Positions 7,913 through 34,122 of a stretch of 34,122 bases of DNA are shown one piece after another (position 1 is the stretch's first letter; the number at the start of each line of letters is the position of its first letter). Source of the DNA: a virus; the IMG/VR virus record IMGVR_UViG_3300042451_002118, positions 1-34,122 of that record; one strand, given 5' to 3'. The notes beneath the pieces are model-generated. The model ran no database searches. It worked only from the letters and a program-made list of their open reading frames with translations, and had not been told where the DNA came from. The position numbers and the translations under genes were made by a program.

Positions 7913-7922
7913 TTATAAATAT
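7913..7922 (-). promoter_or_regulatory. ATATTTATAA box upstream of the 83-aa gene
   Basis: Exact decamer, 12 nt before the ATG at 7900. Its first base is the last base of the stop codon of the 7922-9796 fibre gene. The coding-strand context ATATTTATAACAAAAT is shared with the box before the gp13-like gene. Confidence 0.45.
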
Positions 7923-14481: not shown

Positions 14482-16854
14482 TCATGCTAATGAACCTGAT
14501 CTCCATGCACCAGCCATCCAAACATAGAATCTATGGTTTCCTGTTACTGTGGCAAATACCATTTCACCATCAGTACCAGTCCAAGATGGAGCAGCTGATT
14601 GAGTTGTTGGAAGTACAATTGAACCGGACATTCTTACTTTGAAGGCATCTTTACGAGCATTATCATCTGTACCATTACCTACAACCATTAATGAAGTTGA
14701 ATCTCCATGTGTATTAAATTGACCTTGTACGTGTTGGTATGAACCAGAAGCTACTGTTTGTTTACCTTCAGTATGTGAATATGCTCCTAGTGATATAGTA
14801 AATTCACCTTCGGCATGAGATCCTCCACCTATTGCGTTAGATCCTACCCCTTCAGCATGTGAAGAGTTTCCTGTAGCAGTAGTTTGTTGTCCTTCAGCAT
14901 GGGAGTAACCTCCTAAAGCAATTGTAGAATAACCTTCAGCATGTGAATAATCTCCACTAGCTGATGTGAAATACCCTTCAGCATGAGCATAAGAACCTGA
15001 AGTAAAAGATTGATGGCCTTCGGCATGGGAACCTTTACCTAATGCTATACCACCGTATTGGAATTGACCTCCACCACCTTCAGCATGTGAATAAGCACCT
15101 AAAGCTTTAGATACATATCCTTCAGCATGTGAATAATCTCCACTAGCTGTAGTATAGTAACCTTCAGTATGTGCCCAAGTACCTAATGCTATAGTTTGTT
15201 GTCCTTCAGCATGTGAACCCCATCCTATAGCTTTTGTTGTATTACCTTCAGCATGAGATCCAATACCTTCGGCAACTGTATTAGCTCCTTCAGCATGTGA
15301 ATATTGTCCTATTGCAATAGTACCTGTACCTTCAGCATGTGAATATGAACCAGATGATATAGTTTGAACACCTTCAGCGTGTGAGTAACTACCAGAAGAT
15401 ATAGTTTGTTGTCCTTCAGCATGTGAATAGTCTGCAAATGATACAGTTCGATCACCTTCAGCATGAGAAGAACCTCCTCGAGCTCTTGTACTATCACCTT
15501 CAGCATGTGACCAAGCACCTGAGGCAGTTGTAATATTTCCTTCAGCATGGGCATAGAATCCACTAGCTGAAACTGAAAATCCTTGAGCAAATGAAGTGGA
15601 AGAAACTTTATTATCAGTAAAGCCTGTTCTAAATGATCCAGAATGAGCTATTGAACCTGTAATTGTTTGGTTTCCAATAAATATGTTTGAACCAGTTGTT
15701 GCAAATGATCCAGTATTAATTGTTGAACCTCCACCACCTGAACCAAATCCGGAAGCAGCAGCTGATGCTGAAATGAATGTTGGGTTAATATAAGAAGCTG
15801 TTGTTACTGTTCCTGTAATTCCACTAGTAACACTTAAAGAACCAGTGATTTGAACTTGGCTGCTAGCAGCAAAAATTAAGTTAGATCTATTAAAATCACT
15901 AATACCATTACCAACAATAAACGCTCCATTGGTTGAACTAGACACATTAAACGTACCTTGTACATGTTGATATTGTCCTATGGCTACAGTACCCCAACCT
16001 TCAGCATGTGAATATGATCCAGAAGCAAGTGTAGAAAATCCTTCAGCATGTGAATATTGACCTGTTGAATTTGTAGCTCTTCCTTCAGCATGAGATGCAT
16101 ATCCTGAAGATGTTGTTTGGTATCCTTCAGCATGAGATGCTTGTCCTGAGGATAGAGCACCCCAACCTTCAGCGTGTGAATGAATTCCTAAAGCTATAGT
16201 AGAATAACCTTCAGAGTGAGACATACTTCCGGAAGCAGTTGTACTTTCACCTTCAGCATGTGAGCTTTCTCCTAAAGCATCAGTTCCAGTTCCTTCGGCA
16301 TGTGAATAATTTCCTGTAGCATTGTTAAGGTAACCTTCAACGTGTGAATATAAACCATCAGCAGTACTATTAGTACCTTGAGCAAATGACCCACTTGTAA
16401 CTGTTAAAGTATTACTATTACCAGTTTTCATAGGTCCAATATTTACAAATGTATTTGAACCTGAAACTGTTAATGATCCTGTAATGGTAACACTACCTGT
16501 TACAGTTTGGTTACCTACAAAATTATTTGAGCCTGTTGTTGCACTTCCACCACCTGAACCACCTGAACCAAATCCTGAAGCAGCAGCTGATGCTGAGATA
16601 AATGTTGGGTTAACATATGAAGCGGTTGTGGCAGTTCCTGAGAGTGAGCCTGTAAAACCACCTGTGCTTGTTACACTTCCTGTTATAGTTTGGTTACCGT
16701 TAAAGGTATTTGAACCAGTTGTTGCAAATGATCCGGTATTGATTACAAATGAGCTAGTATTACTAGTAGTAACTACAGGTGAACCATTACTGGTTATAAC
16801 TCCTGTTGTAGCAATTGATCCTGAAATATTTAATGATCCTGAAAAGAAAGGCAT
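14482..16854 (-). CDS. Large tail fibre with two HAEG-repeat blocks (30 units)
   Basis: This 790-residue protein is built as two successive fibre modules. It opens MPFFSGSLNISGSIATTG, then GSNTFNGNQTITGSVTSTGG and the linker PTFISASAAASGFGSGGS. Block 1 has ten HAEG-type units ending in HVQG and a shortened version of the C-terminal domain (VGNGISDFNRSN). A second linker and ITGS segment follows, then block 2 with twenty units ending in HVQG. The full C-terminal domain from THGDSTSLMVVGNG closes the protein. Module 2 alone matches the layout of the 444- and 624-aa fibres, so the gene looks like an internal duplication or fusion. Unit variants include HSEG, HTEG and HVEG. It begins 21 nt after the 92-aa gene and ends at a strong terminator. 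It is likely a receptor-binding trimer. Confidence 0.85.
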   Translation of the reverse strand: MPFFSGSLNISGSIATTGVITSNGSPVVTTSNTSSFVINTGSFATTGSNTFNGNQTITGSVTSTGGFTGSLSGTATTASYVNPTFISASAAASGFGSGGSGGGSATTGSNNFVGNQTVTGSVTITGSLTVSGSNTFVNIGPMKTGNSNTLTVTSGSFAQGTNSTADGLYSHVEGYLNNATGNYSHAEGTGTDALGESSHAEGESTTASGSMSHSEGYSTIALGIHSHAEGWGALSSGQASHAEGYQTTSSGYASHAEGRATNSTGQYSHAEGFSTLASGSYSHAEGWGTVAIGQYQHVQGTFNVSSSTNGAFIVGNGISDFNRSNLIFAASSQVQITGSLSVTSGITGTVTTASYINPTFISASAAASGFGSGGGGSTINTGSFATTGSNIFIGNQTITGSIAHSGSFRTGFTDNKVSSTSFAQGFSVSASGFYAHAEGNITTASGAWSHAEGDSTRARGGSSHAEGDRTVSFADYSHAEGQQTISSGSYSHAEGVQTISSGSYSHAEGTGTIAIGQYSHAEGANTVAEGIGSHAEGNTTKAIGWGSHAEGQQTIALGTWAHTEGYYTTASGDYSHAEGYVSKALGAYSHAEGGGGQFQYGGIALGKGSHAEGHQSFTSGSYAHAEGYFTSASGDYSHAEGYSTIALGGYSHAEGQQTTATGNSSHAEGVGSNAIGGGSHAEGEFTISLGAYSHTEGKQTVASGSYQHVQGQFNTHGDSTSLMVVGNGTDDNARKDAFKVRMSGSIVLPTTQSAAPSWTGTDGEMVFATVTGNHRFYVWMAGAWRSGSLA
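14722..15563 (-). repeat. Array of 42-nt HAEG coding repeats, 20 copies
   Basis: Second (C-terminal) repeat block of the 790-aa fibre. The plus-strand core ccttcagcatgtgaata recurs about every 42 nt, with one longer Gly-rich unit near 15070. It is the largest repeat block in the window. Confidence 0.85.
15956..16352 (-). repeat. Array of 42-nt HAEG coding repeats, 10 copies
   Basis: First (N-terminal) repeat block of the same fibre, ending at its own HVQG unit. The two blocks are separated by a linker and a partial copy of the C-terminal domain. Confidence 0.83.
16555..16620 (-). repeat. Dispersed linker repeat (PTFISASAAASGFGSGGG), one of four copies
   Basis: The plus-strand sequence around ccaaatcctgaagcagcagc and tgatgctgagataaatgttg recurs with few changes near 8830-8880, 10841-10900, 15728-15790 and here. 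It encodes a Gly/Ala-rich hinge between the shaft and HAEG head in all three HAEG fibres, occurring twice in the 790-aa one. It is a likely crossover site between fibre genes. Confidence 0.75.
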
Positions 16855-18470: not shown

Positions 18471-20177
18471 TTAAAGTAAGTTCAAATCGTTAACGAAGAT
18501 ACGACCGAAGAATTCAGGACGAATCATTTTCTTAGCGTAACGAGTCAAGAGACCTTTACGTGGAGTAAATGTATCTGGATCGTACACAAGAGGTGTCATG
18601 ATTAATGGAACATACGGAGCAAATACCGCACCAGTTTCAAGGAATTGTGATCCTCTATAACCCATCAAGATCAAGTTTTCTGTCATGTAAGGGTTTTTGT
18701 AAACTGTATAACGGTTGTTCATTTGACCAGCTTTCTGGATACCGAATGCGTAGCTAGCTTTAGTTACATCACCATCAGAAGATGAAGCAAATCCTGGGAT
18801 TGACTCAAGGATAGTTGCTACATTTGGAGAACATACGAGGAAGTTAGCACCACCACGTAATGTCTTTTGGTGAATTTTGTTAGAAACTTTCTGCATTTTA
18901 GTACCTAAAGTTTGGAACCACTGACCTTGAGTGTTGTAGTAACCAGCTGTAGATAACCATTCTGTTTTACCAGCATTCAAGTAAGTGTTTGATTTTGCTG
19001 ACCAGTACTCATCTGCTGCAGATGCATCTTGGATCAACATATCAATTACTTCAAGATCGATTTCCAATGCAATGTACTCGCTCATGATTGAAGTCAATTC
19101 AGCTTCAGCATCCAATGATTGGTATGCGTTCAAATCTTGAGCGAATTCTGGTGTCCATTGTGCTTTCAACTTACGAGTTTTAGCAACAATAGCCTCAGAT
19201 TTCATTTGGATATTGATTTGTGGGATAGCCAATTGGTCTGCAGATGTAGACTCAGCATTTGGATAACCAGCACCGCTGTTATCTTCGAAATCACCTCTGT
19301 AGTTGTCAGCAGGTTGAACATTGTAGAACAATGTGTTAATTGTACTTGAACCTGTAGGCATGCCAGTTAAAGCACCTGAACCAGATACGATGAAAGTAAT
19401 GGTAGTAGAACCATTAGTAGTAGTATACTGTGGTAACAAGTTACTGTAGATTTGTGATGCTGGAGTTGCTGTTGAACCTGAAGCAGGAACAAATGCACGA
19501 ACACCTTTAAAATCTGGACGTGGAACAGTTGTGTTAGCACCTACTGTGTAAACAATTTTCTGAATACCACCTGAAGCAATAGAAGCTGAAAGGGTTGAAT
19601 CGTACTCTACATCTAACCAAGAAGCTGGTGAAGTAGATGAAGTTACAGATGCTGAGAATTGGTTGATAGAGTAGGCAAAACGACCTGCACCATATAAACC
19701 GTTAGTAGGATCAACACCAGGACCTGGGTTAGTAGCACCATACATAGATGAAGTAGTACCATAAGTATCACCACCAGGACCAAACGGACCAACAGGAGCA
19801 GCTTTACCAGAAGCACCGTATTGGAAATCCAAGAAGAATACTAGACCAGAAGGCAAATTCATTGGTTGTACAGAAACGAATTCTTTAGATGATAAAGAAC
19901 CGAATACTTTACGTACCAATGGAAGAGCTACACCAGCCCATTGCTCACCTTGACCTACTTGGAAAGTACCGCCACCTGCGTTTGTAGAAGATTGCTCAAC
20001 AACAAGTTGTTTTGCTTGGTTTTCGAGGATCATAGCCATGTTGTTTTTTTCAACTTCGCTATTCAATCCTTCCAAAAGACCCGTTTTAGCCCATTTTGCG
20101 GACATACGGGCTGCGTCGCTCTGCATGTTTTTCCATCCAGATGCTGCGCTTTCTAAAAGAGAATTAATGTTTGACAT
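18471..20177 (-). CDS. 23: Major capsid protein, T4 gp23-like
   Basis: This 568-residue protein (T4 gp23 has 521) forms the hexamers of the head. The N-terminal ~60 residues carry AAKWAKTGLLEGLNSEVEKN-like helical sequence (here SAKWAKTGLLEGLNSEVEKN) and LENQAKQLVVE, typical of T4-type capsid pro-regions. Prohead protease cleavage probably falls near residue 61. VSVQPMNLPSGLVFFLDFQYG follows, a gp23 hallmark, and near the C-terminus PYVPLIMTPLVYDPDTFTPRKGLLTRYAKK and GRIFVNDLNLL. A central Gly/Ser/Thr-rich insert (about residues 130-290) may be surface exposed. It follows the scaffold gene by 28 nt and ends at a strong terminator. Confidence 0.95.
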   Translation of the reverse strand: MSNINSLLESAASGWKNMQSDAARMSAKWAKTGLLEGLNSEVEKNNMAMILENQAKQLVVEQSSTNAGGGTFQVGQGEQWAGVALPLVRKVFGSLSSKEFVSVQPMNLPSGLVFFLDFQYGASGKAAPVGPFGPGGDTYGTTSSMYGATNPGPGVDPTNGLYGAGRFAYSINQFSASVTSSTSPASWLDVEYDSTLSASIASGGIQKIVYTVGANTTVPRPDFKGVRAFVPASGSTATPASQIYSNLLPQYTTTNGSTTITFIVSGSGALTGMPTGSSTINTLFYNVQPADNYRGDFEDNSGAGYPNAESTSADQLAIPQINIQMKSEAIVAKTRKLKAQWTPEFAQDLNAYQSLDAEAELTSIMSEYIALEIDLEVIDMLIQDASAADEYWSAKSNTYLNAGKTEWLSTAGYYNTQGQWFQTLGTKMQKVSNKIHQKTLRGGANFLVCSPNVATILESIPGFASSSDGDVTKASYAFGIQKAGQMNNRYTVYKNPYMTENLILMGYRGSQFLETGAVFAPYVPLIMTPLVYDPDTFTPRKGLLTRYAKKMIRPEFFGRIFVNDLNLL

Positions 20178-20205: not shown

Positions 20206-21540
20206 TTAAATAATTCCAGCCAATTTTTGCATTCTTGCAAATGCCTCGTTTGACTCTACGATTGGTTTTTTAGCGTTTGGTGTTACCATTGCTTTTGAAG
20301 CACTACCTAGGTTTTCTTTGATTGTATTTTTAGAAACTTTGATTCCCTCATTTAAAGTTTCAAATACCATCTTAACTTCACCTACAGTTTTTGCTTTGTC
20401 AAAAGAACTTAACACTTTCACTTTTTGGTTTTCGTTTAAGTTTTTAGCTTTGAAGATTTTATTTGTATAAAGCAATTTAGCATTTAACAAATTGATTTCG
20501 TTCAATTCAGACTTAAGAGATTCGATAGTAGACATTGCTTCAGCCAATTCAGCTTCTAGAGCTTCGTTTGTTTGGCCTAACATTGCTGCTGCTGAATCTT
20601 TTCCAGCTGATGGAGTAGTAGTTTGTTTAAGACCAAGGTCATCACGAAAATCTGCTAACATTTTTATCCCTTTTGTAACGTATTCGTTTTTAGGGTCAAA
20701 ATATTTTTTCATTTTGTCACTTACATCTTCTTGTGTTTGGAGAATATTTCCTACTTTTTCTTTAAACTCTGGAGATTTAGGGTCTAATCCTGCAAGTTCT
20801 GAAGCACCTTTGATGCTTTTTCCTATGTCAGAAGTAAAGAATTTAGCTAATTTAGCTAATGCTTTATCTTCTCTAGATCCTTTTCCTAATCCAAAAAGTT
20901 CGTCTACTGTTTCTTTTTCTTCCATTTCTTCGATTTCTCTTAAAAGTTCTGCTAGGTCGACTTCTTCTTCGTCTTCCATACCTGTTTCTTCAGCTTCCTC
21001 TTCACCTTCTTCACCTTCGTGTCCAGCTTCGAGTTCGCCTGCTTCGATCATGTCTTTGATAACATCTTCAATCATTGATTTAAGATCTTCATCAGTCATG
21101 TCTTCGAGGTCAAGTGGTTCACCTTCTTCTTCCTCATCTTCTGATTCTTCGTCAGACATTTCCATGTCTTCTTCTTCCTCTTCTTCTTCGGCTTCGTTTA
21201 GGTCTTCCATCCCTTCCTCTTCTTCTAGCTCGCGTAAAAGCTCTTCTAAGTCAATTTCCATCATGTCTTTATCTTCAGCTTCGTACATTTCGTCTTCTGC
21301 TTCTGGAATGTTACCTTTAAGAGAATCAAATCCATCATCTCCGTCTTCGGCGTCCATTTTTTCGAATCCAACTTCTTCAAGTTCTTCTTTTTCCATTTCT
21401 TGAAGTTTAGCTGCAAACATGGTTTTCAATTGAGGTGTGAAGGCTTCTTCTAGAGCTGCTTTTGCGTTTGCGATAGCGGTTTCTTTAACAGCTTTAGCAT
21501 CAGCAATTGCTTCTTTGAGCAAGTCTCTGTTTGTTGCCAT
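20206..21540 (-). CDS. 22: Prohead core scaffold protein, T4 gp22-like
   Basis: This 444-residue protein starts MATNRDLLKEAIADAKAVKE, preceded by TTAGGAAAA, one of the few purine-rich leaders here. The N-terminal helix is followed by a long, extremely Glu/Asp-rich region (about residues 50-215). Then comes a mixed helical part and a C-terminal coiled coil (NEALEAELAEAMSTIESLKS) ending NEAFARMQKLAGII. The last part, ending in ARMQ/LAGI-like sequence, and the place between gp21 and gp23 fit gp22, the major scaffold degraded by gp21 during maturation. T4 gp22 has about 269 residues, so the acidic region is expanded. It starts a separate unit: terminator, structured leader, gp22, gp23. Confidence 0.82.
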   Translation of the reverse strand: MATNRDLLKEAIADAKAVKETAIANAKAALEEAFTPQLKTMFAAKLQEMEKEELEEVGFEKMDAEDGDDGFDSLKGNIPEAEDEMYEAEDKDMMEIDLEELLRELEEEEGMEDLNEAEEEEEEEDMEMSDEESEDEEEEGEPLDLEDMTDEDLKSMIEDVIKDMIEAGELEAGHEGEEGEEEAEETGMEDEEEVDLAELLREIEEMEEKETVDELFGLGKGSREDKALAKLAKFFTSDIGKSIKGASELAGLDPKSPEFKEKVGNILQTQEDVSDKMKKYFDPKNEYVTKGIKMLADFRDDLGLKQTTTPSAGKDSAAAMLGQTNEALEAELAEAMSTIESLKSELNEINLLNAKLLYTNKIFKAKNLNENQKVKVLSSFDKAKTVGEVKMVFETLNEGIKVSKNTIKENLGSASKAMVTPNAKKPIVESNEAFARMQKLAGII

Positions 21541-21727: not shown

Positions 21728-22360
21728 TTAAAATATCGGACATGTACCTTTAGCACATAATATTTCGGTAAGAATAGAATTTGTACGTGCGTATTCGTTT
21801 AAATATGTTGTTCTTGATTCATTTAAAGCACCATTTTTCATCCATGAATCTGGGTTAGATGGATTGGAAACTAAGTCCCAGGTAAGTAGTTCAAAGTCGT
21901 CTTGTACTTCCATTACCTCACCCATTTGTTTTAATGAACCCATTCCACGAGAAGAAATACCAATGATCAAGCCATTTTTAACTAATGCGCCCGCAATGCG
22001 GCCTGATGTAGTACCTAAGTCACCCATATCAGAGAATATTTCTACTTTACCCCAAATTTCATCTCCTCTCCACCATACTTCACGTATAGCGTGTGATGCG
22101 TTTTTAAGGTTGATTACTTGCGAATCAGGGTGGTCCAACTCACCTACCGTTTCGGTAGATTTCATTTGGATTTTGCGTGTAAAATTGTCGATTTCGCGCT
22201 CCCACAATTCACGTTTGTAATAGCGACCATTTCCATTTTTTACCTCTACAGTAGCCAATATCCCTTCAACAAAAACGTTACCGCTTTTGCTCATCCCCTC
22301 AACCAATTTCATTGGTTTTGGATCAAAATGTCTGGTTTCTATTAAAAGTTGCTTGCTCAT
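21728..22360 (-). CDS. 21: Prohead protease, T4 gp21-like
   Basis: This 210-residue protein matches the T4 length of about 212. Motifs of the T4-type prohead serine protease (MEROPS S80) are clear: NGRYYKRELWEREI near residue 44, GELDHP with H77, GISSRGMG with S136/S137 as the nucleophile region, and WDLVSNPSNPDSW with D162. The enzyme sits inside the prohead and cleaves scaffold, capsid and internal proteins before DNA packaging. It follows the 627-aa head protein by 1 nt and ends at a terminator, so it closes the gp17-gp21 unit. The C-terminal ~40 residues are probably a self-cleaved tail. Confidence 0.93.
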   Translation of the reverse strand: MSKQLLIETRHFDPKPMKLVEGMSKSGNVFVEGILATVEVKNGNGRYYKRELWEREIDNFTRKIQMKSTETVGELDHPDSQVINLKNASHAIREVWWRGDEIWGKVEIFSDMGDLGTTSGRIAGALVKNGLIIGISSRGMGSLKQMGEVMEVQDDFELLTWDLVSNPSNPDSWMKNGALNESRTTYLNEYARTNSILTEILCAKGTCPIF

Positions 22361-22361
22361 A

Positions 22362-24245
22362 TTAATAATCCATTCCGTCCATTTTACCTTCTAGATCATT
22401 ACGTAACATGTTTTTCATGTCTAGAGATATATTGTTATAATTGTCAAGGATTGAATCAATACTTTCTCCAGCGTCGTAACGGTTTTCAGCATCTTCTTTA
22501 TATTCTAGATATTCAGCTGATGCTTCTAGTGGAGTTTCAAGTGGAAGTTCTTCATCATCTTCTACTTCATCAATTACTTCTTTAGAGGCTGCTTTTTTAC
22601 CTTTGAATTTCGACATCATTTTTTCAACTTTTTTACGAGCTACCTCTAGTTTTTTAATGTCTTTTTCAAGTTCTTTAACTTTTTTCTTGTCGGTTAAGGC
22701 TTTCATATCCTCATCTTCATCAAGTTTTGAAAGTTTAGAACGTCTATGGTCGATTAAAGCATCAATTTTGTCTAATTTAGCTTGTAGAACTTCGTGTTCT
22801 GCTTCTTTGTTGATATCTGCTAAATCTTTTTCAACACTTTCACGTAATGGTTCCATTGAATCTTCTTCCATAATGTTCAAATTAGGAATCAAGAAATCAC
22901 CTTCAGCCCAATATTGTTTATCACCAGCTTTGTTGAATTGGTCAGCTTTTGCTTTTTCAACTTCTACATTTAATGGATGATATACTCTAAATTCTTTAGG
23001 TAGTTCAGTTGTTGGACCATAGTTATCAGGTTTATTAAGTACCTGTTTTACCATTGGTGGGATATCCATAATCAATTTTTTGATTGCTGGTTGGTTAGCA
23101 TATCCCTTAACTAAATTATTGTATAGAATATCTGAAATATATAATGTTCCACTTCCTGGGTTAAAAACAATATGTTCACCAAAACGTTTTCTAATGTTTT
23201 GTGGGAAAGGAAGTTGATTTGGGATGAAACGTCTACCACCTTCACCACCTCTACCAGAAGTATTAACGCTAGGCATTTGATATGCTTCATCAACATCACT
23301 TTCTTCTATATTTTGAGAAATTGAATTTAATCCAGCACTATGACGAGAATATATTTTTTGAATTGTAGTTAAAGCTGTTTTATCACTTAAATGAGGTTGT
23401 TCAAGTTTAAAAAGAGTATCTTCAAATTCTTCAGAATTTAATTCTTCAAAAATCATATTTTGAACTACTTCACGCAATGCAATTTCTTCAAGTGATTCAC
23501 CTGCTTCTTTTCTACGCTTAAGTTCAGCTTCACGTTTTTGTTTTAGTTTAGCTTTGATTTCTTCATCAGTAAATTTGCTATCTTTTTTTTTAGTTACAGC
23601 ATCTTTAACATCTGATTTAAATTTTTCTACACCTTCTTTCAAATCACCATATCCAGATGATTTGTATTTACCTTTAGCTTCTTTTGGCTCACCTAAACCA
23701 GGATGATCAGTTACGTATCCTAAATCTTTAATACCAAATTGACCATCTTTTGTATAGTAAATTGGATCTTTTGCTAAGTTTTTAAATACGATGTCTTTAA
23801 GTTGTTGCATCGTTTTATCAGCATTTTTAGGATCTTTCATTTCAGCATAATAACCTGTCATAATTTGATCGAAGATCATATTATCCGGGTTTTTATCATC
23901 TTTGTAATCAAAAGCATGATCAAGATCTTCTTCTACAGGTTTAGAAACTTTTTTCTCTTCTGCTTTAACTTTTTCATCGTCATTTTTCTTTTTTGCTTCA
24001 GCTAAGAATGCTTCAAAAGCAGTTTCGTAAGATTCTTTTTTAGGACGATCCATCATAGCAGGCATCACAGAAATTACATTTTCTGAGATGATATTTTTGG
24101 TTTTAAGTGATGCTACTGCTTCATCAAATGTAGCAGCATTGCGTACGATATTTGGAAATTGACGTTTTGCTTCTGTAAGGAAAACACCAACGTGTCCTTT
24201 ACCTTCTTTGATTAACAAATACTGATCTTGTAATGTCTTTTTCAT
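22362..24245 (-). CDS. Hypothetical Lys/Glu-rich protein, probable prohead core component
   Basis: This 627-residue protein starts MKKTLQDQYLLIKEGKGHVG. Long charged helical regions alternate with a globular middle (about residues 320-430: PFPQNIRKRFGEHIVFNPGS, TLYISDILYNNLVKGYANQP). A long coiled coil occupies about residues 490-570 (KLDKIDALIDHRRSKLSKLD), then an acidic segment and a C-terminus ending DLEGKMDGMDY. I do not recognise a family. It occupies the gp20-gp21 interval, which in T4 holds the small core proteins gp67 and gp68, and it overlaps its upstream neighbour by 1 nt. A prohead core or internal virion role is inferred from position and composition only. Confidence 0.7.
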   Translation of the reverse strand: MKKTLQDQYLLIKEGKGHVGVFLTEAKRQFPNIVRNAATFDEAVASLKTKNIISENVISVMPAMMDRPKKESYETAFEAFLAEAKKKNDDEKVKAEEKKVSKPVEEDLDHAFDYKDDKNPDNMIFDQIMTGYYAEMKDPKNADKTMQQLKDIVFKNLAKDPIYYTKDGQFGIKDLGYVTDHPGLGEPKEAKGKYKSSGYGDLKEGVEKFKSDVKDAVTKKKDSKFTDEEIKAKLKQKREAELKRRKEAGESLEEIALREVVQNMIFEELNSEEFEDTLFKLEQPHLSDKTALTTIQKIYSRHSAGLNSISQNIEESDVDEAYQMPSVNTSGRGGEGGRRFIPNQLPFPQNIRKRFGEHIVFNPGSGTLYISDILYNNLVKGYANQPAIKKLIMDIPPMVKQVLNKPDNYGPTTELPKEFRVYHPLNVEVEKAKADQFNKAGDKQYWAEGDFLIPNLNIMEEDSMEPLRESVEKDLADINKEAEHEVLQAKLDKIDALIDHRRSKLSKLDEDEDMKALTDKKKVKELEKDIKKLEVARKKVEKMMSKFKGKKAASKEVIDEVEDDEELPLETPLEASAEYLEYKEDAENRYDAGESIDSILDNYNNISLDMKNMLRNDLEGKMDGMDY

Positions 24246-24748
24246 TATTTTTCTGATAAGAGTTGTTTTATTTCTTTTAAATAGCTTAAAACTATTTCGA
24301 TTGGTTTATTGATATCATATGAACCAGCATTTCCACCGTATAATTCAATAGTTTCATTTTTTGCATTTGAAACAAGTGGTTGAATTTCGTTCATTAATTT
24401 TTCAATTTCGTCTAACGAAGCAATACGTCTTTTTTGAACGTCATTCATTTCGTTTAATGTATCATCTTCCCAAAGTTGTTTAACTTCCAAACCAGACCCT
24501 TTAATTTTTTTAGGTACTAGTGTGTATTTAAATTGCTTTACATAAGCATTATCCTTAACACCTTCAGAACCAGCACTTGGACCCATTCCTAAAGTTGCTC
24601 CAGGACCTTCTTTAATATTTTTTGTTTTTTTAAATGCCTTTGGAGTAGCATAATTCATTCCTTGACCAGGAGAAAACGAAGCACCACCCATTCCGGTAGC
24701 GCTCATTTCTGCTAGTTTTTTGCGAATTATTTCTTTAATTTTTTCCAT
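24245..24748 (-). CDS. Hypothetical head-region protein
   Basis: This 167-residue protein begins MEKIKEIIRKKLAEMSATGM, a short amphipathic helix like those at the N-termini of several proteins here. A Gly-rich segment GGASFSPGQGMNYATPKAF follows, of a kind I recall from head-gene regions of environmental T4-like phages. The middle has FKYTLVPKKIKGSGLEVKQL and the C-terminal half is helical (IASLDEIEKLMNEIQPLVSN, LSYLKEIKQLLSEK). It overlaps the upstream gene by 14 nt and the downstream gene by 1 nt, so all three are probably co-translated. It lies in the gp67/gp68 interval; equivalence to either is not shown. Confidence 0.68.
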   Translation of the reverse strand: MEKIKEIIRKKLAEMSATGMGGASFSPGQGMNYATPKAFKKTKNIKEGPGATLGMGPSAGSEGVKDNAYVKQFKYTLVPKKIKGSGLEVKQLWEDDTLNEMNDVQKRRIASLDEIEKLMNEIQPLVSNAKNETIELYGGNAGSYDINKPIEIVLSYLKEIKQLLSEK

Positions 24749-27545: not shown

Positions 27546-29147
27546 TTATATAAGCCAAGAAATGTCTTCTTTGCCGTTTGAGTAAGGGTTGTCTATTTGA
27601 AATGGGTTGTTATTATACTTATCAGCATAACTAGGCCCATTGGAATAACCTCCAGCATATGCGGTTTTGGAATTACCAATACCATTTAACATACTTTTAG
27701 TCATTTCCATATTACTTGTTCTAAGTTTAAATGCGGTTTCACGTAAGTAACAACCAATACAAAATGCCATTACTAGGTCATCATTGTATCCTGATTGAGC
27801 TTCTGCTCTACCGTTTCTCCATATAAATACTTTCATTTCCTCCATTAGGCGAGCAGAATGAAAAACAACTCCTTTATCCATAACAGCTTCTTGGAATTTT
27901 CCAATTGCTATAGGACGAGTTGTATTTGACATTGTAAAACCTGGGGTCATTTTACTGTGATCCATATAAGGATCAAAGAAAGAATCTACATTATTTGATC
28001 CACCTTTTGGTGAGTAATAGAAATTTTGATAACCTCTGTCTAAAATGGTTTGTACGGTTGACCAACCTACGCTTTGATTTTCGACTGCTAACAAGGCATT
28101 GTTATATTCCGTTGCAATGCTTGTTAACAAATGTCCATAATCTTTTGTATTAATTTGGCCCTTATATTCACCTACCTGAGTGAATGTTTCGACATCAAAG
28201 ATGTGAAACGCCGAATAATCCTTGCCATCGCCACGCGCTACATCAGCTACGATCAGATAACTCCTCGAATAATCCGCTGGTTCCCAAATCCATAGATTTT
28301 GATCAATACCACGTTTTTCTAGAGGTTCTTTCACGTGAAATTGTTCGTAAAAAGTAATATCTTCAGGGGTGAATACTGTATCACCCGATGTTGTAAAGTC
28401 ACAGTCACATTCCTGTGCTGCCATTCGAATACCTAAATCTTTATCTTGTTGATCTCTCCATGATTGATCTCGTTCAGGGTGAACTTCCCAAGGTAATCTA
28501 ATAGGTAAGAAACTGTTATCACCCATTTCAGCATTAACCCATGTCTGATGGAACCAGTTACCTGTACCATAAGGTGTAGATAATGCAATACATCCACCAC
28601 CAGTAGCTAAGGTTTGTTGAGCTGAGGCCCAAATCTCACCAATGTTGTGAATGAAGGCGGCCTCATCTATAATCAACAATGAAACGGCTTCTGATCGACC
28701 TGCATCTGCTGATGCACCAACTGCTTTAATTTGAGATCCATTTGGCAGTCGAAGTGTTAATTTATTTGCCTCGTCAGGTTTATTTGCAAATTTCAACCAG
28801 GAAGGTAAGCTTTCATACATGAATTTTACCTTGGTAACCATGTTTTTAGCGGTTTCCTGTTTTGTTGCAATACAAAGGATGTTTTTATCTTCATGGAAGA
28901 TCATCATCCACAATGAATAACCTGCGGCTAATGTTGAGATACCTAACTGGCGAGATTTAAGTACTATTGAGTATGGGTTCTCTTGGAATAGAGTAAGTAC
29001 TTTTTCTTGGAATGGATAAAGGTTAAAAGGCATTCGCCCACGCTTCGGATGCTGGATCTGGCAGTATTTTTTCATAAAATATGCCGGTGATTGGGCACAC
29101 TTTATATACTCCTCGCGGACGACTTGTTTTAAACTTTTTTCTTCCAT
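27546..29147 (-). CDS. 17: Terminase large subunit, T4 gp17-like
   Basis: This 533-residue protein is the ATPase motor and nuclease that packages DNA. FNLYPFQEKV (residues 41-50) is a gp17-type adenine-binding region. The P-loop reads VLKSRQLGIST (62-72), with Ile where classical Walker A has Lys and a Lys at 64, as in deviant terminase P-loops. Walker B is LLIIDEAAF (D161/E162) and the coupling motif is STPYGTGNWFH (190-200). The RNase H-like nuclease has YLIVADVARGDGKDY (D302), AVENQS (E356) and YNDDLVMAF (D456/D457). T4 gp17 is about 610 residues. Its start overlaps the previous stop by one base (TAATG), coupling it to the membrane-protein genes. No gp16 (small subunit) gene is evident next to it. 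Confidence 0.95.
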   Translation of the reverse strand: MEEKSLKQVVREEYIKCAQSPAYFMKKYCQIQHPKRGRMPFNLYPFQEKVLTLFQENPYSIVLKSRQLGISTLAAGYSLWMMIFHEDKNILCIATKQETAKNMVTKVKFMYESLPSWLKFANKPDEANKLTLRLPNGSQIKAVGASADAGRSEAVSLLIIDEAAFIHNIGEIWASAQQTLATGGGCIALSTPYGTGNWFHQTWVNAEMGDNSFLPIRLPWEVHPERDQSWRDQQDKDLGIRMAAQECDCDFTTSGDTVFTPEDITFYEQFHVKEPLEKRGIDQNLWIWEPADYSRSYLIVADVARGDGKDYSAFHIFDVETFTQVGEYKGQINTKDYGHLLTSIATEYNNALLAVENQSVGWSTVQTILDRGYQNFYYSPKGGSNNVDSFFDPYMDHSKMTPGFTMSNTTRPIAIGKFQEAVMDKGVVFHSARLMEEMKVFIWRNGRAEAQSGYNDDLVMAFCIGCYLRETAFKLRTSNMEMTKSMLNGIGNSKTAYAGGYSNGPSYADKYNNNPFQIDNPYSNGKEDISWLI

Positions 29148-29575: not shown

Positions 29576-29864
29576 AATATGTGCGTGTTTGTTGTAGCTC
29601 TTTTTCGGTGTGTTTAATTTCTATATTCAATGAATCAACAATGTGATTTTGTTGATCGAGTTGTTTGTTTAAAACTTTTTGACCAAATTTCAATACTTCA
29701 ATATTGTTTTTTAGTCGCTCAATTTCCTGTTTTTGTTTTTCGTATTTGTCAGTTGGTGTAGGTTTTTCAATATCACACTTAACTAAAAATACTAGTAACA
29801 ATAAAAGTATCCCACCTATGATAAGATGGGATAACTTTAGTTGGAATGTTTTATTTTGGATCAT
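29499..29864 (-). CDS. Membrane-anchored coiled-coil protein, i-spanin (Rz)-like
   Basis: This 121-residue protein has one N-terminal transmembrane helix (residues ~11-29, SHLIIGGILLLLLVFLVKC). A periplasmic-type coiled coil follows (about 40-105) with EKQKQEIERLKNNIEVLKFG and NIEIKHTEKELQQTRTYYGN, and a short polar end. This is the architecture of inner-membrane spanins such as lambda Rz, though length and sequence alone do not prove it. The 3' end overlaps the next gene by 77 nt in another frame, and its start overlaps the upstream stop by 4 nt (ATGA). The Cys after the helix (VKC) could look like a lipidation site, but Lys at -1 makes that unlikely. No holin or endolysin is seen in the window. 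Confidence 0.68.
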   Translation of the reverse strand: MIQNKTFQLKLSHLIIGGILLLLLVFLVKCDIEKPTPTDKYEKQKQEIERLKNNIEVLKFGQKVLNKQLDQQNHIVDSLNIEIKHTEKELQQTRTYYGNKIKDLTSASNTELEQFFSDRYR

Positions 29865-30754
29865 GCTTCAACTTCTCTACCAGCAGCACGTTTCAAATCG
29901 TCCATCATTGATTTAGCGAATTTGAATTTATCTTTTGCTAGTTTTAAAATACCATCAATTTTAGCTTTATCATCTTTATTTTTCTTAACTGAAGCTAGGA
30001 ATTGATTGAATTTAACTTTCTTTTCTTCTGGGGTAGATGCTAATTCTTTTGCTGTTGAATCACTACCTGCTGATTTAGTTGCTGCTGCATCTTCATCATC
30101 AGAATAAGATACATCATCGAATCCATCATCTCCAGGTGTACGAGTAGCTATTTTTGCTTTAGGTTCACCTGCTGGTCTTCCTTTTTTACCTGTAGAAGCT
30201 GGTTTTTCTGGTTTGTTTGGATCTGCTTTTCTACCACGTTGTCCTGGTTCTTTTAAACCTAATGCTTTTAAGATAGCATTGTTTGTTTGATTATCTTGCA
30301 ATTTACTTCCAGAATCGTCAAATTCTGTTTGTTTTTTCAAAGCTTGAGCAACAGCAGAAGTTTGACCTTTACCAGAAATTTGTTGACGGATAGCTTTCAA
30401 AAGACCTTTTAAACCTTCTTTATCCATTTTAGATACATCTGCTTTAGATATTCCTCTATCTGAAAGTGTTCTGTTAACAACTTTTTCCATAGCTGCTTCT
30501 AGTGTATCTTCTTCACCATATTTTGCTGCTACTTGTTTATCAAATCGACCACCGAAATCTGGGACTTCATTAAGTTCTTCTGATTCAGCTACACCGGTTT
30601 TCATCAATTCAGCTTTTTTCTTTTGTAGGGCTTTGATTTCTAAATCGGCAGCTTTAATAGCAGCCATTTGAGCTGCTTTTTCTTCTGCTTCACCTTCATG
30701 TAAAACAGCACTAATTTCTTCACGTATGATTTCGAGTAAACGAGATTTTTTCAT
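29861..30754 (-). CDS. Lys/Ala-rich protein with AT-hook-like segment, possible internal head protein
   Basis: This 297-residue protein begins MKKSRLLEIIREEISAVLHE, an amphipathic helix like those opening several neighbouring genes. A helical Lys/Glu/Ala region follows, then a basic linker with RGRKADP (173-179) and KKGRPAGEP (190-198), the latter like an AT-hook core. Next comes an acidic patch (SYSDDEDAA) and a helical basic C-terminus (KKNKDDKAKIDGILKLAKDK, SMMDDLKRAAGREVEA). Nucleic-acid binding is plausible. It could be an internal protein packaged with the DNA, or a core component. I recognise no named family. An exact ATATTTATAA box lies 13 nt before its start, and its stop overlaps the next start by 4 nt. 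Confidence 0.65.
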   Translation of the reverse strand: MKKSRLLEIIREEISAVLHEGEAEEKAAQMAAIKAADLEIKALQKKKAELMKTGVAESEELNEVPDFGGRFDKQVAAKYGEEDTLEAAMEKVVNRTLSDRGISKADVSKMDKEGLKGLLKAIRQQISGKGQTSAVAQALKKQTEFDDSGSKLQDNQTNNAILKALGLKEPGQRGRKADPNKPEKPASTGKKGRPAGEPKAKIATRTPGDDGFDDVSYSDDEDAAATKSAGSDSTAKELASTPEEKKVKFNQFLASVKKNKDDKAKIDGILKLAKDKFKFAKSMMDDLKRAAGREVEA

Positions 30755-31312: not shown

Positions 31313-32614
31313 TTATTTTAAAAAACTTTCTGCTACATAAATTGCTTGTGCTCCTGATACTGTAATACCACGTGCACTTAAAGCATCACCTACGAAATGT
31401 ACGTTAGGATAATCTATTAAACTAAGATTACTATAATCTACTTTTACCTCAGGTGACAAATATTTTACTTCAGGAATGTACATACCCCAATCGTCTCCAA
31501 GTGTAGGAAATACTTTTTTCATATCCATGATAAAATCCCAAACATATCTAAAATAACCACCCATTGATTGTTCTACAACATGAATAAGTGTATCGAAGCT
31601 AATTTGAACTGCACTTACATTGTTACCTTCAGATGTAGAAGATGGTTGTCGAGTGTAATTAGGTGAATAATATAAACCAGTACCACCAGATTGGAGTTTG
31701 TTTACTACTTCACGTGACCAAGTAAATGGATCTTCAATACCATTAATTTCCATTAAGATACCAAAGTTAGTCATGTTATTTCGGTATGCTTCATCTTTCT
31801 TAGCGTGACCATTGTAACTGTGATCTCCATATGTTTCCTCTACAGCAACATAAGCAGCATTATTGTTAGTACAGAATGAACGTAATGATACTCCTTCATC
31901 TTCAAATTTTCTATATAACTTAAAGTCATATGAAATATCGATTAGTTTTTGGAAGTGTTCTTGTGGTGCCTCAAAACGTACTCCGATTTGAACTGATTTA
32001 GGTTCATCTGGGAGTTTATATTCTTGGGCTAATTCTTGAGCAAAGTCAATACCTGATTTGCCTACACCGAAAATAAGTTCATCATATGTGATATCGGCAT
32101 TATGTGTGTAAGCTCGGTTATTTTTAAAATCAATAGATTCTACTTTAGTTTCCCAATGAAATACAACACCTTTAGATACTAAATAATCATACCAGTTTTT
32201 AGCAATTTCAGATAAATAATCTGTACCTACGTGCCATACTGGGAATAATCGTAAGCCGAAATATGGTTTAATGAATTCAGGTTCCTCAACAGGATTTGAA
32301 CATTGTACTTCTTCAGGTTTAGGGTGAAAACGTTTGAAATTGGTAATCACTTGATCCATCAATTCCATTGCTTTATCTTCACCACAATATTTAGACAATT
32401 GTCCTCCAATTGCTGTATGATAAGTCAATTTACCATCAGACCAACCTCCAGCACCGAGAAAACCTGTCATTACTTCTTCAGGTTTACGTTTGTATGGATC
32501 TTTACCCATATCAATTACTGTGATTAATTCTCCAGGATAACCGTTATCCACTAACTTTGTTGCCGCATTCACACCTGCTACTCCGGCTCCTACTATTACT
32601 ATTCTCTTGTCCAT
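31313..32614 (-). CDS. FAD-dependent dehydrogenase-like protein (resembles COG2509)
   Basis: This 433-residue protein opens with a dinucleotide-binding Rossmann motif, RIVIVGAGVAGVNAA (GxGxxG at 9-14). GAGGWSDGKLT (residues 54-64) matches the G-G-x-x-SDGKL signature I associate with COG2509-type FAD-dependent dehydrogenases. The usual FAD-family end motif is present too, FVGDALSARGITVSGAQAI (about 407-425). Length is near the family's lower limit and the frame is intact, so it is probably functional. The substrate is unknown. I do not recall it as a standard T4-like gene, so it looks like an acquired auxiliary metabolic gene. It lies directly after a terminator, has an ATATTTAAAA-like sequence before its start, and is followed after 5 nt by a NadR-like kinase. 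Confidence 0.78.
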   Translation of the reverse strand: MDKRIVIVGAGVAGVNAATKLVDNGYPGELITVIDMGKDPYKRKPEEVMTGFLGAGGWSDGKLTYHTAIGGQLSKYCGEDKAMELMDQVITNFKRFHPKPEEVQCSNPVEEPEFIKPYFGLRLFPVWHVGTDYLSEIAKNWYDYLVSKGVVFHWETKVESIDFKNNRAYTHNADITYDELIFGVGKSGIDFAQELAQEYKLPDEPKSVQIGVRFEAPQEHFQKLIDISYDFKLYRKFEDEGVSLRSFCTNNNAAYVAVEETYGDHSYNGHAKKDEAYRNNMTNFGILMEINGIEDPFTWSREVVNKLQSGGTGLYYSPNYTRQPSSTSEGNNVSAVQISFDTLIHVVEQSMGGYFRYVWDFIMDMKKVFPTLGDDWGMYIPEVKYLSPEVKVDYSNLSLIDYPNVHFVGDALSARGITVSGAQAIYVAESFLK

Positions 32615-32720: not shown

Positions 32721-32990
32721 TTATGCTATTTTTTTAACACTCATTACTCTATCTCCACGTCCAAAAAGATGGTTATCAATTTTATATTGCCATATTTTTG
32801 TTGAGCCCTCAGCATTATCTATATCTTCTTGAGTGATAGTTACTATTTCATCATCACCACCTGAACCACCATCAATAGTATATTCTACTTTATATTTTCC
32901 TGGTTCAGTAGGGAATTGGTCTTTAAGTTCTTCACTTAAAGCACGTTTAAGTTCTTCTTTTACCAATTGTTTTAAGCCGTCTAGCTTCAT
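32721..32990 (-). CDS. Small hypothetical protein with N-terminal amphipathic helix
   Basis: This 89-residue protein begins MKLDGLKQLVKEELKRALSE, a charged amphipathic helix of the type seen at several N-termini here. A compact beta-like part follows (GKYKVEYTIDGGSGGDDEIV, then TITQEDIDNAEGSTKIWQYK), ending RVMSVKKIA. I recognise no family. It overlaps the upstream cupin-like gene by 4 nt (ATGA) and is the last gene before a terminator. The N-terminal helix may be a targeting tag, for example to the prohead; this is speculative. Confidence 0.65.
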   Translation of the reverse strand: MKLDGLKQLVKEELKRALSEELKDQFPTEPGKYKVEYTIDGGSGGDDEIVTITQEDIDNAEGSTKIWQYKIDNHLFGRGDRVMSVKKIA

Positions 32991-33247
32991 GATTTGTGTA
33001 TTTTTAATTTCAAAGTACCATTTCCTTTAATGACTCTATGCCATTCGTGTCTTGGTATAAATATACGTTCTTTTAGGGAGGTAGGCAACTGATCTTCTAA
33101 TTGAAGTTTCCAGTCTGTGTCTTCTAAGATTTCAACTGTTCTATCTTCGTCATCACGATGCCATAATAGTTCAATTGGGTCTATATTTTCGCTAAATTCG
33201 CGAATAATATATTTGTCAGTAACTTCTATGTCTGTATAGGGTCTCAT
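32987..33247 (-). CDS. Small cupin-like protein
   Basis: This 86-residue protein contains IREFSENIDPIELLWHRDDE (about residues 14-33) and IFIPRHEWHRVIKGNGTLKL (about 62-81). The first part gives a His followed by acidic residues, and the second matches a cupin motif 2-type strand-turn (P-x-x-x-x-H). This suggests a small single-domain cupin fold with possible metal binding by the His residues. From memory, similar short proteins with WHRDDEDR occur in marine T4-like phages with no known function. It overlaps both neighbours by 4 nt, within the translationally coupled small-gene cluster. Confidence 0.7.
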   Translation of the reverse strand: MRPYTDIEVTDKYIIREFSENIDPIELLWHRDDEDRTVEILEDTDWKLQLEDQLPTSLKERIFIPRHEWHRVIKGNGTLKLKIHKS

Positions 33248-33489
33248 TCACCTTTTGGTAAAAACCAATTTGAACACCATTTTGAAGGATCTTTAATTTG
33301 ATTACCTTCATTATCTACTAGTTCAGCTGTTCCCATATGTTCTTGATAGTATGAATTACCACACATATGTTTTTCGTTTTCTACATAGTAAAATTTACAA
33401 ACATGGCATCCAAAACCCACAGGTGAATACATGTAAGCGGGAGACTTTTCTGATTGGGTTGCTTCTTTAAGTAGGTCTATTAATTTCAT
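33244..33489 (-). CDS. Four-cysteine protein, resembling a high-potential iron-sulfur protein
   Basis: This 81-residue protein starts MKLIDLLKEATQSEKSPAYM. The Cys pattern is C28-x2-C31-x11-C43-x28-C72, embedded as GCHVCKFYY, HMCGN and KWCSNWF. Four Cys with the first two spaced CxxC and the last in a WCxxW context recall high-potential iron-sulfur proteins, where four Cys hold a 4Fe-4S cluster. Spacing differs from the classical family (x16 and x13). A zinc-ribbon-like or other metal site is the alternative. There is no signal peptide, whereas classical HiPIPs are exported. It overlaps the genes on both sides by 4 nt. Confidence 0.62.
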   Translation of the reverse strand: MKLIDLLKEATQSEKSPAYMYSPVGFGCHVCKFYYVENEKHMCGNSYYQEHMGTAELVDNEGNQIKDPSKWCSNWFLPKGE

Positions 33490-33893
33490 TTTGTTTTACC
33501 CCATTTTTTACCTTTTCCAGGTGTTTTACATTGAGCAGGTGTAGGACGACATGATGGATATTTGGAGCGTTTTTCTCCTTCTTCACGTCCACATGCTTTA
33601 TATCCTTTTATTTTACCGTCTTTTCTAATTGGTGCATTGCAATCAACCCATCCACCCTTTTTACCAGGTGTTCCTTTACGTTTGAACCAAGTGCGGAGGG
33701 TTTCTTTTACTTTTTCTTGAATTACTTCTTCTTTTAAGCCTTTCCAAATAGTACCTTGACGACATTTTACAACAGCGCCAGATTTGTAAGCAGATGGTTT
33801 GTCGTATTTGCGGTCTGCAATACGAAGACATCTGTCACGTTTTTTCTTTTCTTCAGAAATAACTTCGTTAATAAGTTTATCCAATCTATCCAT
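33486..33893 (-). CDS. Small basic Cys-containing protein (DUF5872-like)
   Basis: The start chosen is the ATG at 33893, giving 135 residues and overlapping the previous stop by one base (TGATG). A GTG one codon earlier (33896) is also possible. The N-terminus is MDRLDKLINEVISEEKKKRD, a charged helix. The C-terminal half has GGWVDCNAPIRKDGKIKGYK, ACGREEG, YPSCRPTPAQC and an end KTPGKGKKWGKTK. I associate this WVDC-ACGR-YPxCRP pattern with DUF5872-type proteins of phages and giant viruses, whose function is unknown. Five Cys and high Lys/Arg suggest nucleic-acid or metal binding. It overlaps the next gene by 4 nt. Confidence 0.72.
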   Translation of the reverse strand: MDRLDKLINEVISEEKKKRDRCLRIADRKYDKPSAYKSGAVVKCRQGTIWKGLKEEVIQEKVKETLRTWFKRKGTPGKKGGWVDCNAPIRKDGKIKGYKACGREEGEKRSKYPSCRPTPAQCKTPGKGKKWGKTK

Positions 33894-34122
33894 CACCAGA
33901 ATCCTGAAAAAGATGATTTTAATCCAAGTAATTTAGCATATCTTGGTAAGCGACATGACCAATAAGATGGTTTTGTTCTATCTTTTTTATTTTTACAATC
34001 ATGACGTGCAGCAAATGCTCTACGTGCTTTTGGATCGTTTATTTTAGCAGACATACCTGCTTGTCCAAAAGATACTTTTTTAACTTTTCCTTTATCTCTT
34101 ACGTAAACGTAGAATTTTTTAG
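33893..34122 (-). CDS. Basic hypothetical protein, N-terminus beyond the window edge
   Basis: The frame is open from the right edge to a TGA at 33895-33893, giving about 75 C-terminal residues: KKFYVYVRDKGKVKKVSFGQ, then AGMSAKINDPKARRAFAARH, DCKNKKDRTKPSYWSCRLPR, and an end AKLLGLKSSFSGFW. The pattern FAARHDCxxKKDRTxPxYWSCRLPRYAK is one I recall from many T4-like environmental phages as an uncharacterised small protein. It is basic with two Cys. Its TGA overlaps the ATG of the next gene (TGATG), showing it belongs to the same coupled cluster. Confidence 0.72.
   Translation of the reverse strand, partial: KKFYVYVRDKGKVKKVSFGQAGMSAKINDPKARRAFAARHDCKNKKDRTKPSYWSCRLPRYAKLLGLKSSFSGFW

Follow-up and report, generated by a model that had tools for sequence, protein, structure and literature searches.

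The four-Cys protein encoded at positions 33244-33489 (P0001; minus strand, 81 amino acids plus stop, ATG start; sequence MKLIDLLKEATQSEKSPAYMYSPVGFGCHVCKFYYVENEKHMCGNSYYQEHMGTAELVDNEGNQIKDPSKWCSNWFLPKGE) probably represents a new family of capsid cargo in uncultured T4-like phages, as its sequence features suggest: it starts with a predicted capsid-targeting sequence, and behind this lies a body for which a fold like that of high-potential iron–sulfur proteins (HiPIPs) is predicted. We assign this reading (that is, a capsid cargo with a HiPIP-like four-Cys body) a probability of roughly 0.5; the first part of it, that the protein is a capsid-targeted cargo, we regard as likely, the leader being a stronger result than the HiPIP-like fold. 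Given that a leader of the capsid-loading type stands at its start, the protein is probably a swappable, delivered cargo and not the partner of a nearby enzyme. The window (that is, the whole stretch of DNA analysed, an IMG/VR virus record of 34,122 bases) probably belongs to an uncultured T4-like phage related to phages of Bacteroidota, and all 32 genes placed in it by a simple gene caller lie on the minus strand.

The first-pass annotation had placed an open reading frame exactly here, giving no strand, and had described a CxxC motif with two further Cys residues, the last in KWCSNWF, all of which we recovered. The Cys residues lie at positions 28, 31, 43 and 72 (codons at 33406-33408, 33397-33399, 33361-33363 and 33274-33276, respectively, minus strand), which gives a spacing of CX2C-X11-C-X28-C, and every one of them is conserved across all 106 distinct bodies (by profile HMM, 90 of 90 in family 1, including the window's own, and 16 of 16 in a shorter family 2), with the conservation of the first two or of the last somewhat favoured because some loci were fetched with patterns holding these residues. 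Family 1 goes back to a first IMG/VR search that yielded 121 stretches encoding a relative of P0001, 80 of which were kept, and was widened to 90 distinct bodies by scans with L070, with divergent members (A2) and with the leader pattern; its members have 11-16 residues between the second and third Cys, 28-36 between the third and fourth, and a Trp just after the last. A Tyr nine residues before the first Cys is part of the family 1 search pattern itself; this Tyr, a feature expected in the comparison with HiPIPs, is absent from 16 of 16 family 2 bodies. No relative of P0001 was found by tblastn among 50,697 phage records, and a pattern scan of GTDB genomes gave 90 matching stretches with no distant relative confirmed. 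P0001 has no Pfam family at E ≤ 1 and no PHROGs match; two uncharacterised relatives are present in BFVD, namely A0A6J5M7Z1 (58% identity, TM 0.91) and A0A6J5LZY8 (28%, TM 0.66).

The feature that went unmentioned in the earlier annotation is the N-terminal leader. On the letters alone, residues 1-9 (MKLIDLLKE; 33463-33489, minus strand) resemble a T4-type capsid-targeting sequence with L/I-x-E at its end, and a cut is predicted after Glu9 (L-K-E/A). Similar leaders (MIKLIDILKE and the like) precede unrelated bodies: when the four-Cys family profile was run against all open frames of the loci, weak matches (E 0.17 to 9.9) to many unrelated proteins were returned, in which the likeness was limited to the first ten residues. 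A regular expression for the leader, written after the first matches were known and applied to frames of at least 60 amino acids with the four-Cys genes included, matched at 153 of 1870 first-Met, 30 of 1246 second-Met and 35 of 3295 later positions, and its 209 candidate bodies fall into 41 rough clusters, some of them by chance. A position-specific scoring matrix (PSSM) trained only on 23 distinct four-Cys leaders was applied to the other genes of four contigs (G001, G005, G009 and G010) and of the window; scores of at least 10 bits were reached by 11 of 784 other N termini, compared with 4 of 15,680 shuffled N termini and 2 of 2,623 internal ATGs. Of the 11, at least one (G001 89147-89665) looks like chance; 0 of the 31 other window genes reached 6 bits. 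The strict L/I-x-E motif, sought in the 20-residue stretch that ends at the fourth residue of the body, is present in 82 of 82 family 1 and 13 of 14 family 2 distinct contexts (the family 2 member at L283 has none before its body) as against 1426 of 7514 internal segments of 20 residues (19%), counts that do not amount to a probability because the contexts are related rows and not independent ones. An earlier and more lenient count had given 72 of 72 contexts, compared with 3355 of 9490 segments.

Leaders of this kind may not be confined to the four-Cys protein in the window, as four genes have, by eye, longer leader-like starting helices (33486-33896, 32721-32990, 29861-30754 and 24245-24748). 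The first of these (minus strand) encodes a DUF5872-like protein (PF19197, 27.2 bits against a cut-off of 27.5) with the N terminus MDRLDKLINEVISE and is a possible second cargo; its own PSSM score is below 6 bits, and in relatives other leaders are found on the same kind of body. The second (minus strand; N terminus MKLDGLKQLVKEELKRALSE) is also a possible cargo, its start being better kept than the rest, by eye, in comparison with locus L278. Pfam searches with ten leader-bearing proteins of the loci returned a Zeta_toxin/AAA_33-type kinase (PF06414, E 1.6e-12), one NT5C-type nucleotidase (PF06941, E 4.9e-06) and one P-loop protein (AAA, E 2.1e-04), with weak matches below the cut-offs for the proteins of L010 and L013 and no family at E 0.05 for five. 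Two further leader-bearing types were observed. At L121:11331-12206, MIKLIDLLKE is followed immediately by a Cys and CVIAAVHVDGDTVLAKNRDRGY, so that cleavage would expose an N-terminal Cys; this sequence bears some resemblance to Ntn hydrolases, a reading for which neither Pfam nor the PDB gave support. Proteins with a YHFT/YHFA motif (L146:3829-4395, L008, L015 and G009 39843-40370) are, we presume, perhaps ADP-ribosyltransferase-like, as is T4 Alt; the one at L146:3829-4395 has no Pfam match.

Leader and body of the four-Cys protein assort independently. Family 2, which emerged from the leader search (FPDGFQPAKSVPQGGAMCANC...YVCIWW; 16 distinct bodies with CX2C-X9-C-X22/23-C), is not supported by hhalign as a sequence homologue of family 1 (1.4%), and the same leaders precede both: a MIKL-type leader stands before 69 of the 90 family 1 and 5 of the 16 family 2 distinct bodies and a NITEW-type leader before 14 and 2, respectively, the remaining 7 and 9 being in other contexts, mostly after an insert or another cargo domain. 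When the NITEW leader was sought on bodies other than four-Cys ones, none was found, 16 of 16 matches belonging to family 1 or 2. Neighbours in common with the window are present in 15 of the 17 family 2 loci searched. In locus L278, five of nine matched neighbours are 88.7-93.8% identical to those of the window (for example, terminase 93.8%, dehydrogenase 90.5% and DUF5872-like protein 89.7%; the other four 40-76%), and the slot holds the leader as in the window followed by a different four-Cys body, one of family 2. At the DNA level, the two are identical at 342/390 positions upstream of the leader, at 26/27 within it, at 109/232 in the body and at 217/254 further downstream, which places the break directly behind the predicted cleavage site.

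The body is also found joined to other domains. In L121 and L122 it forms the C-terminal end of a long protein (570 amino acids in L121, starting MIDITKLGTLIAEE), for which PHROGs gave a cytidyltransferase match (phrog_3041, E 1.9e-07) and a weak metalloprotease match (phrog_87, E 0.004), and Pfam no family at E 0.05. This frame (L121:4501-6213, with a similar one in L122) reads as leader, nucleotidylyltransferase-like domain, metallopeptidase-like domain (HELVHH), one unknown domain and four-Cys body, and L-x-E-like sites lie, by eye, near the L121/L122 domain junctions (VIKE/G, TLQE/D and QLTE/S); from this arrangement of domains and sites, it looks like a cargo polyprotein. Other arrangements have a leader, a zinc-ribbon-like insert and QLKE/S before the four-Cys body (L013) or a small insert before it (L119). 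Eight of the 16 distinct family 2 bodies are preceded by a PGLWANIRAKRERGEKP-type domain that ends in KLSE, KLNE or QLNE and that is a separate gene of 55 amino acids in L012 and L013.

For the body itself, the evidence comes mainly from structure prediction. An AF2 model of the body only (residues 16-81; 33247-33444, minus strand), for which 65 of the 106 distinct bodies were used as input (11 of them family 2), has a pLDDT of 89.3 and a pTM of 0.73 and a predicted HiPIP-like fold; a full-length P0001 model with 38 family 1 sequences was poor (pLDDT 58.6), and fold searches with it returned no HiPIP. Foldseek searches of the PDB with the body model gave 30 matches at E ≤ 10 and none at E ≤ 0.001, the top three being benzylsuccinate synthase 4pkf_B (E 0.87), 9pzj_B (E 1.2) and the HiPIP 1isu_A (E 2.0, TM 0.47/0.50), followed by matches that are unrelated, judged by their titles. 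Re-alignment of 63 Foldseek chains (that is, Foldseek's own candidates only) with VIA-align gave nine PDB chains with Z ≥ 2 (Z 2.0-4.8, rmsd 2.5-3.4 Å; middling Z values are common, according to the tool's own warning), and all nine are HiPIPs or HiPIP-fold subunits of glycyl radical enzymes: 9pzj_B (Z 4.8, rmsd 3.0, 53 aligned), 4pkf_B (4.7, 3.4, 55), 1isu_A (3.8, 2.7, 50), 2hip_A (3.7, 2.8, 51), 3h31 (3.3, 2.6, 49), 8z82_a (3.1, 3.0, 53), 1pih (3.0, 3.0, 51), 2y8n_B (2.6, 2.5, 40) and 1hlq_C (2.0, 3.0, 47). Six of these chains are HiPIPs (Z 2.0-3.8, 47-53 residues); from titles and lengths, we infer that 4pkf_B and 9pzj_B are BSS-beta and 2y8n_B the HPAD small subunit. As the nine chains are all of one fold and eight of them span nearly the whole body, a HiPIP-like fold can be argued for despite the low Z values. 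According to the excerpted text of PMC12358834, BSS-beta, MASS-beta, MASS-gamma and HPAD-gamma resemble HiPIP, with 1ISU as the comparison, and MASS-beta is a HiPIP-fold [4Fe-4S] subunit with the ligands Cys32, 35, 51 and 86. Given that the last Cys gap in MASS-beta is long, like the 28 residues here, the difference in spacing from HiPIPs, to which the first-pass annotation had rightly drawn attention (28 residues between the third and fourth Cys in P0001 compared with 13 in the HiPIPs examined), does not by itself exclude the fold. On the basis of the model, we lean slightly towards a HiPIP-like fold for the four-Cys body.

Membership of the HiPIP family by sequence is rejected, as Pfam, PHROGs, PF01355 on the record, PDB sequence searches and hhalign were all negative. 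The Pfam HIPIP profile (PF01355) matched neither P0001 nor the record (0 of 1), so that the profile search proposed earlier went against the family assignment. The CX2C plus two single Cys that the HIPIP family requires are present in 106 of 106 distinct bodies, but the ligand spacing departs from it (28-36 residues between the third and fourth Cys in family 1 and 22-23 in family 2, against 13). As the first-pass annotation had observed, no export signal is visible in P0001 by eye; this includes a twin-arginine-like signal, the RR motif being found in the six bacterial HiPIPs compared. With hhalign (57 of the 90 family 1 and 16 family 2 bodies, against seven HiPIP rows of which six came from plasmids and one was typed, and with L157 left out), family 1 reached 10.7% against HiPIP, aligned only at the DPSKWCSNWFL end, and family 2 reached 6.0%; the 33.5% of a merged profile of both families in local mode is not counted, because the third Cys is unaligned and the value drops to 3.6% in global mode. 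Among PDB sequences, profile A1 matched no HiPIP (one unrelated chain at E 0.37) and profile A3 had no match. A separate candidate, the match of a typed HiPIP to Pseudomonas phage PseuP_222 (tblastn, E 0.9), was rejected, its aligned part being without CX2C. What stands of the earlier HiPIP-like proposal is thus the fold, in part, owing to a confident body model and to matches with HiPIP-fold chains, and what falls is the family, with the Z values remaining low.

It is possible, although we find it doubtful, that the same capsid cargo uses its four Cys to hold one zinc ion or to form disulfides and that the HiPIP-like fold matches are a coincidence. The low Foldseek and Z values against HiPIPs would fit this, as would the BFVD matches that come behind the two clear relatives (a zinc-ribbon protein at rank 4, E 0.16; TFIIS at rank 9, E 0.93; and a rubredoxin-like protein at rank 10, E 0.93) and the zinc-ribbon-like insert in another cargo, that of L013. 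Against it, no zinc finger is among the nine PDB chains with Z ≥ 2, and at the motif level the WCSNWF end is similar to the GWCxSW/Y with which HiPIPs end, and family 2 has CANC as in several HiPIPs. We consider the odds of iron–sulfur rather than zinc in the four-Cys body to be even.

The window encodes a prohead protease of the T4 gp21 type (Peptidase_S77, 21728-22360, minus strand; PF03420 E 2.3e-27, phrog_207) with MSKQLLIE as its own N terminus, and a T4 gp23-type major capsid protein (18471-20177, minus strand; PF07068 E 2.5e-75). Between them lies a probable prohead scaffold (20206-21540, minus strand), a role suggested by position and acidic composition and accompanied by no Pfam match. 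The C terminus of the scaffold candidate, RMQKLAGII, resembles another leader class (...RMQ-LAGIITE) that heads 14 distinct sequences of the loci, some of them related (for example, G001 119579-119884 and 127339-128004), and by this resemblance the leader class and the scaffold tail may bind the same partner. Peptidase_S77 is present in 11 of the 12 long contigs with a four-Cys gene. Among the probable tail or appendage genes of the window are long proteins with many SHAEG repeats (14482-16854, 9978-11312 and 7922-9796), and a repeat protein of 1730 amino acids (885-6077) ends in KYKTNIQPL...GLIADEVEKIYPEFV, which resembles an S74-type intramolecular chaperone.

By terminase, the nearest cultured relative is Flavobacterium phage Immuto (55.5%), in which an S77 protease, gp23 and, by eye, at least seven leader-like N termini (for example, MISIYNILKE, MRLLELLRE and RMQKLAGIITE) occur in the same region on differently annotated genes. 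In Immuto (L295, MW353175.1 95000-144000), a repeated N terminus, F(D/N)L(K/R)(K/S)FL..NKLTxNxxxLxE, heads three genes (locus positions 8807, 22632 and 23633), and a related one is found at G001 49009-49452. The available part of PMC7077304, checked for proteomics of Immuto, does not contain the term FspM.

We consider it unlikely that the N-terminal segment is only a common amphipathic start, spread by recombination, that binds scaffold, tail or membrane without being cleaved. Long amphipathic starts do occur on genes that are not expected to be cargo, such as the terminase (MEEKSLKQVVREEY; window 27546-29147), and the leader heads predicted enzymes that may not be packaged. The segment, however, is short and lies at the N terminus or at domain junctions, L/I-x-E accompanies it in 95 of 96 distinct contexts, the S77 protease co-occurs as described, and the body is replaced right behind the leader, a pattern described for the internal proteins of T-even phages.

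The earlier suggestion of an electron-transfer function linked to the FAD-dependent dehydrogenase (31313-32614, minus strand; PF00070 2.4e-06, phrog_12409 6.6e-22) finds no support in our data. The four-Cys gene does lie upstream of the dehydrogenase unit, as had been stated, with two genes between them (32987-33247 and 32721-32990), every one of these genes being on the minus strand. That the protein is a HiPIP-like electron carrier partnering this enzyme in infected cells is very improbable: HiPIP-fold proteins are favoured by the fold search, and 32 of 71 distinct loci (those of 83 distinct slots with 4 kb downstream, long enough to show it) have the dehydrogenase in that stretch, but it is not there in the other 39, the genes 32987-33247 and 33893-34054 are more constant neighbours (each in 54 of 71, within 4.5 kb), the match to PF01355 is missing, and the leader is absent from the 15 commonest dehydrogenase N termini listed for the relatives. 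The nucleotide-binding motif lies a few residues from the start in all 15, so the dehydrogenase is not a predicted cargo.

For the preferred reading, a capsid cargo with a HiPIP-like body, the course that we infer, from targeting and cleavage through the metal to ejection and target, would be as follows. MKLIDLLKE would dock the protein into the prohead core as a capsid-targeting sequence, and the phage S77 prohead protease would cut after Glu9, as for T4 internal proteins. In the freed body of about 70 residues, the four invariant Cys would hold a cluster, most likely [4Fe-4S], in a HiPIP-like fold; the body would stay in the head, enter the host with the DNA and act on a host target inside the cell, by analogy with T4 Ip1-3, which act against a defence enzyme. 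Action on a host target, we propose, would explain why the body is exchanged between phages and the leader kept. An anti-defence role, which follows this analogy, is a tentative suggestion. Joining these observations, we put forward as a conjecture, and one that may well prove wrong, that aquatic T4-like phages of Bacteroidota use a single exchangeable leader to package an entire set of proteins in the head, some of them as polyproteins, and inject an iron–sulfur cargo. Such a set would comprise iron–sulfur proteins and predicted kinases, nucleotidases, nucleotidylyltransferases and metallopeptidases; some multi-cargo polyproteins would be cut by the prohead protease into separate effectors within the head, and the four-Cys cargo would disable or re-tune a host enzyme after injection.

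If this is true, a short leader ending in L/I-x-E, together with an S77 protease in the genome, would be a sequence rule for head-loaded proteins, and it would cover the infection-delivered proteins of uncultured aquatic T4-like phages, many of which have no family name. An anonymous four-Cys open reading frame would become a testable injected effector, with similar leaders at hand in the cultured phage Immuto. The presence of a cluster protein in a phage head would itself be a surprise, and we know of no earlier iron–sulfur cargo of this capsid kind. The open-access matches listed included no literature on a HiPIP-like capsid cargo or on such leaders in uncultured T4-like phages.

Among known systems, P0001 shares with HiPIPs (PF01355) the CX2C..C..C arrangement, an aromatic residue and WC at the last ligand, and a predicted fold that aligns, but it differs in having no profile match, a gap of 22-36 rather than 13 residues between the third and fourth Cys across its two families, and a capsid-type leader in place of an export signal. 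The HiPIP-fold subunits of glycyl radical enzymes (BSS beta, MASS beta/gamma and HPAD gamma) are the best fold matches of the body, and MASS beta has the same CX2CXnCXnC with a long last gap; unlike these accessory subunits, P0001 has a phage leader and no sequence match to them. The candidate cargo genes of Immuto resemble the window in S77 protease, gp23 and leader-like N termini, but no four-Cys gene was found in Immuto by tblastn of the phage records. A further parallel is with the T4 internal proteins. As reported in the accessible sections of PMC9026906, T4 gp21 cuts after L/I-X-E, the propeptides of the internal proteins are 10-19 residues long, the ten N-terminal residues of IPIII are enough to bring about packaging in the head, and the internal proteins are poorly conserved between relatives while sequences like the capsid-targeting sequence persist. 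Excerpts of PMC12373910 add that T4 Ip1-3 are homologous only in their N-terminal leader and are inhibitors of different GmrSD type IV restriction enzymes, and related statements are found in parts of PMC3012670 on the conserved capsid-targeting sequence and of PMC5694885 on giant phages. Like IPI, IPII and IPIII (and Alt), P0001 has a short leader with hydrophobic positions and L/I-x-E before a small body, MKLIDLLKE having the form of an N-terminal propeptide of about 10 residues; a gp21-type protease (PF03420) is encoded in the same genome, and in the relatives the leader is common to unrelated bodies, which are exchanged as it is kept. Packaging and cleavage, known for T4, are for P0001 predictions from sequence. 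Unlike the T4 internal proteins, P0001 has a leader of nine residues with other letters and a four-Cys body without known relative; in related phages, predicted enzymes too start with the leader, and fused cargos have L-x-E-like sequences at their junctions.
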